From a virus: a DNA stretch of 28,124 nt. Shown piece by piece: positions 1-28,124 of the stretch. The translations under genes were made by a program, and so were the position numbers. Location of the stretch: positions 1 to 28,124 of the IMG/VR virus record IMGVR_UViG_3300017950_000045. The stretch is one strand, 5' to 3'. The notes beneath the pieces are model-generated. The model saw only the letters and a list, made by a program, of their open reading frames with translations. It had not been told where the DNA came from and did no database searches. The stretch's first letter is position 1. Each line of letters begins with the position of its first letter.

Positions 1-10
1 GTCAAAACAC
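1..10. repeat. 10-bp terminal direct repeat, left copy
   Basis: The first ten bases, GTCAAAACAC, are identical to the last ten (28115-28124). A run of eight C follows at 13-20. If the ends are joined, the repeat lies about 50 bp upstream of the putative small terminase gene, where phage cos sites usually sit. It may be a cohesive-end sequence, a short terminal redundancy or an assembly overlap, and the sequence alone cannot decide. Confidence 0.6.
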
Positions 11-6162: not shown

Positions 6163-6798
6163 ATGAATACTATCTACCCAATTCATTTTGTGGACATCGA
6201 GACAACTCACCTCCGGCCGGAGATGGGAGAGATAATCGAGATAGCCATTTTAACCAGTAAAGACGGAGGATTAACTATAGACTCCGTATTCGAGACAAAG
6301 ATAAAGCCGGCCCATCTTGAAAAGGCCGACCCCAAGGCTCTCGAAGTAAACAACTATAAAGAGAGCGAATGGCATTCCGCTCCGACTTGGGAGGAGATGG
6401 CTCCAAAGATTCACAATATTCTTTATTATGGTATTGTGGCCGGCCATAATGTTTTTTTTGATTGGAGTTGGCTCGATTACCACTTGAGGAGGACTATTGG
6501 CAAAGGAATATCATATCTAAAACTCGATACTCAAGCTCTAGTTTGGGAACATCTAAACACTAAGTCGGCCTCTCTTAAATCTATCCGGAATCTTTATGGC
6601 TGGAGTCACGATGGAGCCCACTCCGCTCTAAAAGACATCGAGGACACTCACAAATTATTTAAAACTCTTGTTTATCCAGATAGACCCATAAAACAGACTC
6701 TCCAGAATAAGATAAAACGAGCCCAAAATCACGACTTGAATATTATTGGGTTAACTTTGGAGGAGGCCCGAGAATTATTGGCCGCTCTTGGCTCTTAG
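6163..6798 (+). CDS. DnaQ-like 3'-5' exonuclease (DEDDh)
   Basis: A 211-residue protein with all three exonuclease motifs of the DnaQ/RNase T superfamily: ExoI FVDIETT (D11, E13), ExoII GHNVFFDWSWL (D100), and ExoIII GAHSALKDIEDT (H153, D158). The histidine in ExoIII marks the DEDDh subgroup, which removes nucleotides from 3' ends using two metal ions. No DNA polymerase gene is present, so it works either with the host replisome, in nucleotide scavenging or host DNA degradation, or in recombination with the RusA-like nuclease. The last 30 residues form an extra helical tail. It is on the plus strand, convergent with the lysis operon, and its final 24 bases overlap a 44-residue gene on the other strand. 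Confidence 0.9.
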   Translation: MNTIYPIHFVDIETTHLRPEMGEIIEIAILTSKDGGLTIDSVFETKIKPAHLEKADPKALEVNNYKESEWHSAPTWEEMAPKIHNILYYGIVAGHNVFFDWSWLDYHLRRTIGKGISYLKLDTQALVWEHLNTKSASLKSIRNLYGWSHDGAHSALKDIEDTHKLFKTLVYPDRPIKQTLQNKIKRAQNHDLNIIGLTLEEARELLAALGS

Positions 6799-24605: not shown

Positions 24606-26042
24606 TTAACCTCTTAATTTTAATTTAGCTTGTTTTGGGCTTTGATACTGAACACTAATAATCTCTATTGTAGCATATCTTAAAGCGTCTATCGCATGTT
24701 TCCACTCGGAGAGCGTATCCATTCCGCCATTTGATTTCATACTCCAATACTTTAACGATTTTATTATTCTTTGGGCCCTTGGGAATATCTGGAATCTACT
24801 ATCACACATTAACTCATGCAACGATTGACAACCATAATAAACGGAATATTTAGGTTTATAGGCCGTTCGGATATGGAATGGGAGTTTCCCTTTGGGATAG
24901 CCTAAGACATGAGCAAAGGCCGCCATTAACATCGTATTCGACATTCGGCCTCCGTTATTTTTACTCCCACCATGGCTCCGGTCTCCAGTCCATCGCTGAA
25001 TATGAGCCAACTCAAGTCCGGCCCTTTTAATCATCGCGATAATACCCTTAGCATGATTCTCGGCCGAATCTCCGGAGGCTACGTATTCGTCAACTACATA
25101 AACGGCCGGCCGCTTTGAGTCGGTTATATCAACTGCACATAGAACCGCTACTTGGGAGGCTACATCGTGACCATGGTCTATCCCTATCGACCAAACATAT
25201 CTTCTATTGGGGTCGGGAGTCAAGTCCGAAATTAAATCGTCTGTAAACTTCTCGAATATTCTTCCCTCCGGAATTCCAACGTCCCAATCTCCAGCCATAC
25301 GAGCCGCTCTATCTATTCCAAGATAACTCCGAGATAACTCCTCTATCTCCTCCTCGCTCATCATGGGCCGCTTAACTCCTTTTGGAGTTGTATTCTCGAC
25401 ATTCATAACCCCAACATGCTCCGAGATAATTCCATTTTTGACCATTTCTTTAAGATAATCCACCGGAGCTCCAATGGGAGTCATAGTGAATAACATTCGG
25501 CCATTTGGTCTCCTCGTTATACGAGCTCTAAGTTCTCCAAATAGAGCCGGAGGAGGAGGCTCGTCAATCCATATAAAATCTACAGTCCCGGAGGCCACTC
25601 CGAGAGTTCCTTGATTCGTAGTTTTAAAACGGACTATCGAGCCATTCTTAAACTGAACCACCGGAGCTCCGGTTCCTCGATAGCCCTTGGCCGGAGAGAA
25701 TTCTACACTCGGATGTAATTCGTTCTTTGGAACTAAGTCGTGAAATTTGGCCATAATCGTTCTGGATTGTTCCCACGAATGGCAAATAACCCAAGCTTCG
25801 ATAGGAGCCGGAGGAACCGGCTTATATGGAGAGTAGCCGAGAACATGGCATATCGTTTCATAGGAGCCACAAAATGTCTTGCCAATTTGATTCCCTCCTC
25901 TCAATAAAACGAGCCTCGAGGAGTCTTTTAATACTTGCTCTTGAACCTCCGTAGGAGAGAAGAATCTTAATGGGTTGGTTTGGTGCTCTACGAGTAATTT
26001 ATTTGTGTTATTGGCTATCTTTTTTAACTTAGAGAGGCTCAT
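24606..26042 (-). CDS. terL: Large terminase (ATPase and nuclease)
   Basis: A 478-residue packaging motor. Walker A is RGGNQIGKT (about 48-56), and Walker B is FIWIDEP (D160, E161). The C-terminal RNase H-fold nuclease has acidic positions D289 (SIGIDHGHD), D354 (TGDRSHGG) and D452 (HAIDALRYA), the normal order for terminase nucleases. It powers DNA translocation into the prohead and cuts the genome. The start at 26042 has GGAGAGA upstream and overlaps the ThyX-like gene by 14 bp. Its partner is probably the TerS-like protein at 27514, with three genes between, an unusual separation. Confidence 0.92.
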   Translation of the reverse strand: MSLSKLKKIANNTNKLLVEHQTNPLRFFSPTEVQEQVLKDSSRLVLLRGGNQIGKTFCGSYETICHVLGYSPYKPVPPAPIEAWVICHSWEQSRTIMAKFHDLVPKNELHPSVEFSPAKGYRGTGAPVVQFKNGSIVRFKTTNQGTLGVASGTVDFIWIDEPPPPALFGELRARITRRPNGRMLFTMTPIGAPVDYLKEMVKNGIISEHVGVMNVENTTPKGVKRPMMSEEEIEELSRSYLGIDRAARMAGDWDVGIPEGRIFEKFTDDLISDLTPDPNRRYVWSIGIDHGHDVASQVAVLCAVDITDSKRPAVYVVDEYVASGDSAENHAKGIIAMIKRAGLELAHIQRWTGDRSHGGSKNNGGRMSNTMLMAAFAHVLGYPKGKLPFHIRTAYKPKYSVYYGCQSLHELMCDSRFQIFPRAQRIIKSLKYWSMKSNGGMDTLSEWKHAIDALRYATIEIISVQYQSPKQAKLKLRG

Positions 26043-26586
26043 ATTCTCTCCAGTTGATAACTCTATATCGGCATATCTGGAGGAGAGTCTCTTTTAACTC
26101 CTTCTCCAATGGGATTCGAGATGGGAGCCTTAAATAATCTCGGAGATTCTTTAAACTGATTGAGGCCATATATCGAATATATTGATTTTGAGGAAGTACC
26201 ATAGCGGCCGAGGACTCGTCTATTCCTTCCTCGATTAACTGATTAAATAGATTAAAAGACTTCTCACAATGGGAATAAACATCGTCCCGGATATGATAAC
26301 CTCTCCTCGATTTATTGTTATTCCAAAAATAGACATTATCATCGGAGTCCTTAGCCTTAAATCCTTTTGGGACATAGAACCGAGGCTCTTTATCTAGGTA
26401 AAATCTACAAAAGCCCCAAGAGCGATCCTCGAGATGGAGACGAGATAAAAAAACCGGAATATCGAATCGGAACGTTATCGAACAACTATTTAAATAGTCT
26501 ATATCGGACATAAACTCCGATAATCCATTATGGCTCAAATATTCTATAAAGACTATCTCATTAAACTCTACCATTATCTCTCTCAT
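26029..26586 (-). CDS. ThyX-like protein with degenerate active site
   Basis: A 185-residue protein that appears to have the flavin-dependent thymidylate synthase fold. The C-terminal half matches ThyX in order: FNLFNQLIEEGIDESSAAMV, LPQNQYIRYMASISLKNLRD, then YLRLPSRIPLEKELKETL. The N-terminal part has FIEYLSHNG and SITFRFDIPVFLSRLHLEDR. Yet key residues are missing: the RHR motif is EDR (about 53-55), the EARxVLP arginine is alanine (SSAAMVLP), the LR that binds dUMP reads LP, and no S-x-x-R-Y motif follows. Catalysis is therefore unlikely. It may sense flavin or nucleotide, or have been recruited for packaging. The alignment is from memory of the family. An in-frame ATG at 26574 has a better SD (GAGAGAG) than 26586. 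Confidence 0.6.
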   Translation of the reverse strand: MREIMVEFNEIVFIEYLSHNGLSEFMSDIDYLNSCSITFRFDIPVFLSRLHLEDRSWGFCRFYLDKEPRFYVPKGFKAKDSDDNVYFWNNNKSRRGYHIRDDVYSHCEKSFNLFNQLIEEGIDESSAAMVLPQNQYIRYMASISLKNLRDYLRLPSRIPLEKELKETLLQICRYRVINWREYEPL

Positions 26587-26872
26587 GCTTTTTGATTAAA
26601 TCTCGCCAAATAGGATAGAAATTCAAAATCTTTAATAAATGAACTTGGGGACTTTGTTTATCTATCTTGGATAAGAACTCCGAGACATCTATTAAACACG
26701 ACAATTTTAGAATATTATCGGTCTTGAACCATCTAAAGAGAGCCGTCTCGGAATATCTCATGCTATCGGCCAATGTTTTTATATTATCGTCTCCAGTTAT
26801 GGACATAACATATAATCCAAAATCATTTATCTCTCTCTTTCGATATGGTCTACATTTTTTATATCTGGCCAT
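26561..26872 (-). CDS. Small XRE-like helix-turn-helix protein (paralogue D)
   Basis: A 103-residue protein with a basic N-terminus (MARYKKCRPYRKREI), then a helix-turn-helix: NDFGLYVMSITGDDNIKTL, SMRYSETALFRWFKTDN, then CLIDVSEFLSKI and SPQVHLLKIL. It aligns with the proteins at 38, 1512 and 4736, including the shared Q/R-SP-x-x-x-LL motif with the first. It sits in the packaging operon between methyltransferase and ThyX-like genes, so it may control late transcription or bind near the packaging site. ATG 26872 has GAGGAGA upstream. Confidence 0.75.
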   Translation of the reverse strand: MARYKKCRPYRKREINDFGLYVMSITGDDNIKTLADSMRYSETALFRWFKTDNILKLSCLIDVSEFLSKIDKQSPQVHLLKILNFYPIWRDLIKKHERDNGRV

Positions 26873-26881
26873 AACATCTCC

Positions 26882-27517
26882 TCAAAATAAAGTTAGTTGT
26901 CTTTGATGGGCCTCAAGTCTTTTCGAGGCCATCTCAAAATAATCCGGGTCTAACTCAAAAGCCGTTAAATCAAATTTCATATCGTGACAAGCTATGGCAA
27001 TAGAGCCGGAGCCGAGATGGGTATCTAAGATTTTATCTCCCCTCTTTGCGTACTTATCGAGGAGCCATCTATAGAGAGCCGTTGGCTTTTGGGTCGGATG
27101 AATCCTCGGTTGTTTTTTAATAGGCCCTGTTCCTTTTAGATGATGCCATGTAAATTTTCTGACTGATGTCTCAAAACTAGTCCATGCCAATTCACAATCG
27201 GCCATATTATTTCCACCATTATTTTTATCCCATACTAACATACATCTAGTATTAGATAAATAATCTAAAAAATAATTTCCTCCCCAAATAATTTGATTTT
27301 TGGAGACTCTCATTAACTCTTTAAAATATTCTGGAGATGGAATCTCATTATCCCAATCTTTATTAACTGATGATATAATACAATCTGTTTTAAATCCTGT
27401 TTTTAATTGGCTAGTTATTTGTATCCCATAGGGAGGATCGACTATGGCCAAGTCAAAACTATTATCGGCCATCTCTCGCATGGCCTCCAAACAATCTCGA
27501 TTATATAGATTTATCAT
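26882..27517 (-). CDS. Orphan DNA methyltransferase (N6-adenine / N4-cytosine type)
   Basis: A 211-residue methyltransferase of the class with the catalytic motif first: DPPYG at 27-31 and the SAM-binding motif near the end (LDTHLGSGS, about 164-172), with HPTQKPTALY (140-149) between, a strong family marker. It would transfer a methyl group from S-adenosylmethionine to adenine N6 or cytosine N4. DPPY suggests adenine more often. No restriction enzyme is seen, so it is an orphan enzyme that may protect phage DNA or mark packaging sites. ATG 27517 overlaps the TerS-like stop by four bases (ATGA). Confidence 0.9.
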   Translation of the reverse strand: MINLYNRDCLEAMREMADNSFDLAIVDPPYGIQITSQLKTGFKTDCIISSVNKDWDNEIPSPEYFKELMRVSKNQIIWGGNYFLDYLSNTRCMLVWDKNNGGNNMADCELAWTSFETSVRKFTWHHLKGTGPIKKQPRIHPTQKPTALYRWLLDKYAKRGDKILDTHLGSGSIAIACHDMKFDLTAFELDPDYFEMASKRLEAHQRQLTLF

Positions 27518-28065
27518 TCTCCGGCTCCTTTGAATGGAATAACATTGGAATAGTCTCCTTCGATGATGTCCATTAACTTATCTTTGAGGAGAGGAGGAAG
27601 GCCGGCCACCGCTATCGCTATTTGGTGAAGAACCTCGTTCGGGTCTGTTAATCCCTCTAACTCCTCGCTCTCTCTTTTCATTGCGATATATTCGTCATGA
27701 ACCTGTAAATGGAGCCGGTGAAATTGTGGAAGGGAATGGAAGGAACCTCGCTCTCTGGTCTCTTGAATATCATCGCTTATCTCTACAAGTTTATTCCGTC
27801 TAAATAGTATCGGGTCATCATCTAAGGCCATATTTAAAACCGGAGTTCCCATCTTTGGAGATGGCTTGGCCTCCTCGATTATCTCTTGAGCTCTATTGGG
27901 ATCGAATTTCTTTTGGCCTTTACAAATTCTGCCTATCGTTGTTTTATGAACTTGATATTCGTTGGCCAAGTCTTGATAGGTACAATCGCCATTTTTATAT
28001 TTATCAATAATCTCGGCTCGCTCCTTCTCGGTTAACGCGCCTCTCTTTGTATTAGTTCGTCCCAT
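27514..28065 (-). CDS. terS: Putative small terminase / HTH DNA-binding protein
   Basis: A 183-residue protein. The N-terminus is a homeodomain-like helix-turn-helix: LTEKERAEIIDKYKNGDCTY, then QDLANEYQVHKTTIGRICKG. A middle helical region (HRLHLQVHDEYIAMKRESEE) and a C-terminal helix (VLHQIAIAVAGLPPLLKDKL) could form the ring and the terminase-contact part. Small terminases have exactly such an N-terminal HTH that binds the packaging site. The gene is the first of the packaging operon and next to the genome end. The alternative is a transcription regulator. ATG 28065 follows CAGGATAGACG, very like the start of the gene at 409. Confidence 0.65.
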   Translation of the reverse strand: MGRTNTKRGALTEKERAEIIDKYKNGDCTYQDLANEYQVHKTTIGRICKGQKKFDPNRAQEIIEEAKPSPKMGTPVLNMALDDDPILFRRNKLVEISDDIQETRERGSFHSLPQFHRLHLQVHDEYIAMKRESEELEGLTDPNEVLHQIAIAVAGLPPLLKDKLMDIIEGDYSNVIPFKGAGE

Positions 28066-28114: not shown

Positions 28115-28124
28115 GTCAAAACAC
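28115..28124. repeat. 10-bp terminal direct repeat, right copy
   Basis: GTCAAAACAC, identical to bases 1-10. It lies 50 bp upstream of the putative terS start. On the minus strand it reads GTGTTTTGAC, so a TTGACC -35-like element spans 28114-28119, but no good -10 follows at the right spacing. Confidence 0.6.

Follow-up and report, generated by a model that had tools for sequence, protein, structure and literature searches.

ThyX is an enzyme that makes a DNA building block, and phage ThyX homologues are read as thymidylate synthases by default; Pfam would label the protein described here in the same way. Passages of PMC11940539 describe ThyX as a nucleotide- and FAD-binding tetramer whose active sites lie between three subunits, and assign roles to H53, R78, S88, R90 and Y91. 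The RHR motif of ThyX holds FAD and dUMP, and S88, R90 and Y91 belong to an active-site loop. Here we examine a ThyX-like gene encoded beside the large terminase gene of a virus, in IMG/VR record IMGVR_UViG_3300017950_000045. The window, i.e., the whole stretch of DNA analysed, comprises 28,124 nucleotides and contains the following features.

1..10, no strand: 10-base terminal repeat, candidate cohesive end, same bases as 28115-28124
24606..26042, minus strand: large terminase subunit (TerL), downstream slot border (PF03237, E 7.1e-11; phrog_2, E 1.1e-19)
26029..26586, minus strand: putative ThyX-fold pseudoenzyme ORF, 185 aa (Thy1 match, predicted fold, lost key positions)
26561..26872, minus strand: putative XRE/lambda-repressor-like HTH protein, 103 aa, overlapping the ThyX-like ORF; counterpart at the same place in the related virus L012
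26882..27517, minus strand: DNA methyltransferase, N6/N4 type (PF01555, E 1.8e-14; phrog_67, E 3.4e-48)
27514..28065, minus strand: probable small terminase subunit (TerS), an HTH protein, upstream slot border (weak HTH and TerS profile matches)
28115..28124, no strand: 10-base terminal repeat, candidate cohesive genome end, same bases as 1-10

A plus-strand homologue of a DNA polymerase exonuclease subunit lies at 6163-6798; all other profile-matched ORFs of the window are on the minus strand. IMG/VR classes the window record as linear, a class that often denotes a fragment. Comparison of the ends of nine related records showed 10 shared bases in one (G036) and 8 in another (G019); three more (G014, G034, G025) have 7-10 bases common to both ends if one extra end base is allowed, as judged by eye, one (G024) has a 99-base repeat in a different place, and the remaining three (G032, G015, G009) have no shared end bases. 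Many related contigs start at one point, about 60 bases before TerS. The window termini are probably cohesive ends; on this reading the window, at about 28 kb, is likely to be a complete genome. A single Thy1 match was found in the whole window and no ThyA; this probable complete genome contains no other thymidylate synthase. Among 38 related records, Thy1 matches at E values up to 1 were confined to the three that carry the ThyX-like gene, and 8 related records of at least 28 kb had none.

Descent and predicted fold of the ThyX-like protein

The ThyX-like ORF overlaps both the stop of the 103-aa HTH gene and the start of the large terminase gene. Its fifth codon (26574) is likely the better start, giving a protein of 181 aa; a purine-rich GAGAGAG lies just 5' of this codon, and the start of the L012 homologue, itself preceded by GGAG, aligns with the codon next to it.

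A preliminary description of this DNA had proposed that the ORF encodes a ThyX homologue placed between an HTH protein and the large terminase, and had suggested a ThyX profile search together with structure prediction and superposition on Thermotoga maritima ThyX. The window protein matches the Pfam family PF02511 (Thy1) with an E value of 4.6e-9 and 36.8 bits, above the curated cut-off of 24.8, and the L012 homologue reaches 32.8 bits. PDB ThyX chains were also matched by sequence (E 3e-5), and profile-profile alignment against four phage ThyX with hhalign gave 98.1% and E 1e-13. The protein falls below the cut-off for the NCBIfam ThyX equivalog TIGR02170 (30 vs 87.9 bits), its identity to real ThyX is about 11-26%, and the VxNAARVSF stretch at the N-terminus is absent. 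The window ORF is a true ThyX homologue by descent, with a similarity beyond chance.

The AlphaFold model of the window protein (pLDDT 79.9, pTM 0.70) was built from an alignment that included real ThyX rows, and so it depends in part on the sequence result. Its match to solved ThyX structures spans 164-169 residues at Z of about 14, with T. maritima ThyX (3g4c) at Z 14.1, rmsd 3.5, over 168 residues; the best match, PolB (4p5a; Z 14.3 over 176 residues), is tied with ThyX. Homology and predicted fold were thus both borne out, as was the placement, with the small HTH gene upstream and the large terminase gene downstream. The top viral fold match in BFVD is a 185-aa ThyX-like protein of Gordonia phage Skog, which encodes two such proteins, of 185 and 372 aa (A0A6G6XKC7, A0A6G6XK98).

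Loss of active-site positions in a conserved lineage

To compare active sites, we number residues as in T. maritima ThyX and use eleven key positions: 75, 78, 79, 86, 88, 90, 91, 147, 174, 178 and 180. Where the literature passages give no role, a position was included as functional, as with R147, R174 and H178, or as a conserved column. The window protein and the L012 homologue have each lost 10 of the 11. The comparison set of 61 further viral ThyX rows comprised 7 annotated phage genes and 54 of 55 loci found by sequence patterns, one fragment being left out; of these rows, 47 have lost none, 12 one and 2 two. In the window protein, Q75 is replaced by L, R/K78 by E, H79 by D, S88 by C, R90 by F, R147 by A, R174 by P, H178 by P and Q180 by E, while E86 is deleted. 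Y91 is aligned to Y, ambiguously so beside a 3-residue deletion, and H53, where the alignment is poor, to F. The L012 homologue carries Y, L and D at the positions of S88, R90 and Y91. The RHR motif (viral K/R-H) is replaced by E-D-R in the window protein and by F-N-N in L012; both have P at position 174, and HAQ is absent from both. Strongly conserved ThyX columns are retained at 18 of 66.

Conservation at positions 178 and 180 is partly built into this comparison, since the search patterns contained HAQ[KL]EAQ and the W-[MV]-W-T stretch; positions 75, 78, 79, 86, 88, 90, 91, 147 and 174 lie outside them. Because K-H-Q stands for R-H-R in many phage ThyX, a missing R-H-R alone would prove nothing; it is the joint loss that does. 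The window protein is predicted to be catalytically dead, and the earlier observation that the RHR triad, the dUMP-binding arginines and the S-x-x-R-Y segment are altered or lost holds across the key positions. Elsewhere, an identical 176-aa viral ThyX at L070:258-785 and L071:2513-3040 keeps most of its active site but has leucine at 90 and cysteine at 174, and it may represent a different way in which ThyX becomes impaired.

The L012 virus provides a second, diverged copy of the gene at the same place. Identity between the two viruses is 93% for TerL, 77% for TerS, 59% for the methyltransferase, 45% for the ThyX-like protein and 37-39% for the HTH protein. For the ThyX-like pair, the NG86 method gave a dN of 0.49 and a dS of 1.63, hence a dN/dS of about 0.30, which is rough because synonymous sites are near saturation; for the TerL pair dN was 0.063 and dS 1.36. 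The amino acid identity of the ThyX-like pair is 0.45, with 81 identical positions, whereas 500 simulations that distributed an equal number of changes free of constraint gave 0.358 at the highest. In the tree, the two putatively dead proteins form one clade (100/100) with very long branches, on a stem of 5 changes per column from which no placement for the origin of the pair can be read. Their grouping in one clade points to a single lineage that stayed dead and intact.

This family is tiny, with three further IMG/VR records and two distinct sequences. The gene recurs at 100% identity in two records, 3300022927_000310 and 3300018036_001657, the latter with a fragment. When viral_contigs was scanned with the ThyX-like, L012 and HTH proteins, and with alignments of the two members and of a C-terminal fragment, known records alone were recovered, and scans of genome_contigs with TerL and the C-terminal fragment alignment gave no match. 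Phage tblastn searches matched 217 to 472 phage records, of which the listed rows and 11 retrieved regions were inspected. Among the phage and plasmid tblastn matches listed, all were thymidylate synthase-annotated or unannotated genes at most 31% identical, except one short match to a Burkholderia phage hypothetical protein (38% over 26% of the query, E 4). Searches of the open-licence PMC literature listed no report of a dead or repurposed phage ThyX. The pair would represent a conserved lineage in which the ThyX fold outlived its chemistry.

The TerS-TerL gap and its occupants

A homologue of the protein encoded at 27514..28065 directly precedes TerL in relatives of the window virus, and in the window the TerL start overlaps the stop of the ThyX-like gene. 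We surveyed 38 loci with a related TerL; TerS and TerL were both visible in 28, some of which are near copies and not independent events. No gene separates TerS from TerL in 16 of the 28 loci, where the gap measures 2-59 bases. A methyltransferase gene alone occupies the gap in 7 loci, a methyltransferase and a 217-aa gene in 1, the 217-aa gene alone in 2, and the combination of methyltransferase, HTH and ThyX-like genes in 2 (L011 and L012), L011 being the window's virus in another sample. Relatives with a TerL 59-77% identical are without the ThyX-like gene. In this small phage group the TerS-TerL gap is therefore an exchange site for swappable accessory genes, most of them DNA methyltransferases, with the ThyX-like/HTH pair as one occupant. 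PF01555 was matched by the methyltransferases of the window and of L012, L015 and L017, and neither the 217-aa gene nor the small HTH protein gave a Pfam match. Diverged methyltransferases or the 217-aa gene were seen in the slot of L015, L016, L017, L025, L028-L030, L033, L041 and L046.

The small HTH protein looks XRE-like in its predicted model, the best match being a weak one to the N-terminal domain of CapH (Z 8.2 over 63 residues), with many XRE folds at Z 6-7; the best Foldseek E value was 0.2. Its ORF overlaps the ThyX-like ORF, and the two are found together in both full loci (n=2). PADLOC, which covers defence genes and not counter-defence, gave no match for the ThyX-like or HTH protein of the window; for the HTH protein of L012 it gave only mads_1, weakly (E 0.028).

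Candidate roles and comparison with known systems

We tentatively favour the reading that the window protein is a ThyX-fold pseudoenzyme, carried as accessory cargo in the TerS-TerL slot and having a non-catalytic binding role. The gene would have descended from a ThyX-type thymidylate synthase, losing its flavin, dUMP and folate chemistry while the protein was kept for a binding-based job. It would now be cargo in a slot filled elsewhere by DNA methyltransferases, and its product would be made together with the small XRE-like DNA-binding protein, which probably regulates the ThyX-like gene in an effector-autoregulator arrangement. During infection it may bind a host or defence component, either a protein or a nucleotide-like ligand, and its role is most plausibly directed against the host or host defences. 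We infer an accessory effector with its own regulator because the fold is kept without its chemistry, the protein changes fast and is dispensable, a small HTH gene lies beside it and the slot is shared with methyltransferases. As for the new role suggested in the preliminary description, a non-catalytic one is probable, since the fold is kept and the catalytic and ligand-binding residues are lost, whereas a structural part in packaging does not agree with a gene absent from relatives and found in a variable slot.

Genes carried in slots of this kind do not necessarily serve counter-defence. A dead ThyX oligomer with its own HTH regulator, in a slot shared with protective methyltransferases, could sequester a nucleotide-type immune signal or jam a host defence protein; we regard this specific version as unlikely. 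If true, it would place a ThyX-fold pseudoenzyme in phage-host conflict, a role for which no earlier report was found in the open-licence PMC literature. Should the protein prove to counter a host defence, phages would have one more scaffold among their weapons, a new one, and the slot occupants would form a simple list of candidate genes.

A related alternative, possible although we would not expect it, is that a ThyX-fold oligomer, with its nucleotide- or flavin-like pocket retained, acts as a switch for the HTH repressor or as a sink for a nucleotide signal. The ligand-binding tetramer described in the passages of PMC11940539 and the overlap and co-occurrence of the two ORFs would suit such a partnership; yet the FAD- and dUMP-holding residues are among those lost, and the association rests on two loci.

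Inhibition of host ThyX through mixed oligomers seems doubtful. Since the active sites need several subunits, according to the same passages of PMC11940539, a dead subunit could poison the host enzyme, and some strongly conserved columns are retained. However, co-assembly is unlikely at the low identity to real ThyX noted above, and the scheme presupposes a ThyX-using host and offers a doubtful benefit to a phage needing dTMP. It is equally improbable that the gene is a decaying, functionless remnant: the long branches, the missing N-terminal stretch and the wholesale loss of key residues would fit decay, but the ORF remains intact in the window, in a second record with an identical copy and in the diverged L012, and coding constraint together with the identical positions kept by both lineages disfavours a pseudogene. 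We give little credence to an enzyme with changed chemistry using new residues; H19, D42, R49, W57, D65, H98 and R100 are common to both members and form, to our knowledge, no known motif, but both have lost the flavin, dUMP and acid positions. Finally, a part in the DNA-packaging machine beside TerS and TerL, suggested by gene position and the overlap with the TerL start, is very improbable and was rejected, since the gap is an exchange slot holding the ThyX-like gene in 2 of 28 loci and nothing in 16, with TerS directly before TerL, and 8 related records of at least 28 kb do without any Thy1 match.

The pseudoenzyme reading can be set against several known systems. With ThyX itself (PF02511; T. 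maritima TM0449), the window protein shares the predicted fold and several core stretches, P[IVL]F, FY[IV]P and A..[VI]LP among them, but it is without the RHR/KH motif, S88, R90, R174, H178 and Q180, and its N-terminal region is shortened. PolB, the UMP/dUMP methylase of polyoxin synthesis, is likewise a ThyX homologue with a changed role; it is an active flavin enzyme in the excerpts that describe it, whereas the window protein is without the catalytic residues. The atypical ThyX of Corynebacterium glutamicum (3fnn, 3ge9) is, judging by the entry titles only, not needed for thymidylate synthesis and in that respect comparable, although the window protein is phage-borne. Among KH-type phage ThyX, that of Vibrio phage VH-8 scored highest in the phage tblastn searches (31% identity, covering 75% of the query); unlike the window protein, the KH-type rows keep nearly all key positions, and the VH-8 gene lies among nucleotide-metabolism genes and not beside a terminase. 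By analogy, a variable slot in which a fast-evolving accessory protein is encoded beside a small HTH gene recalls the anti-CRISPR operons with their HTH-encoding Aca genes, whose use as bait is mentioned in the abstract of PMC11065993; in the window, however, the HTH gene lies upstream of the ThyX-like gene.
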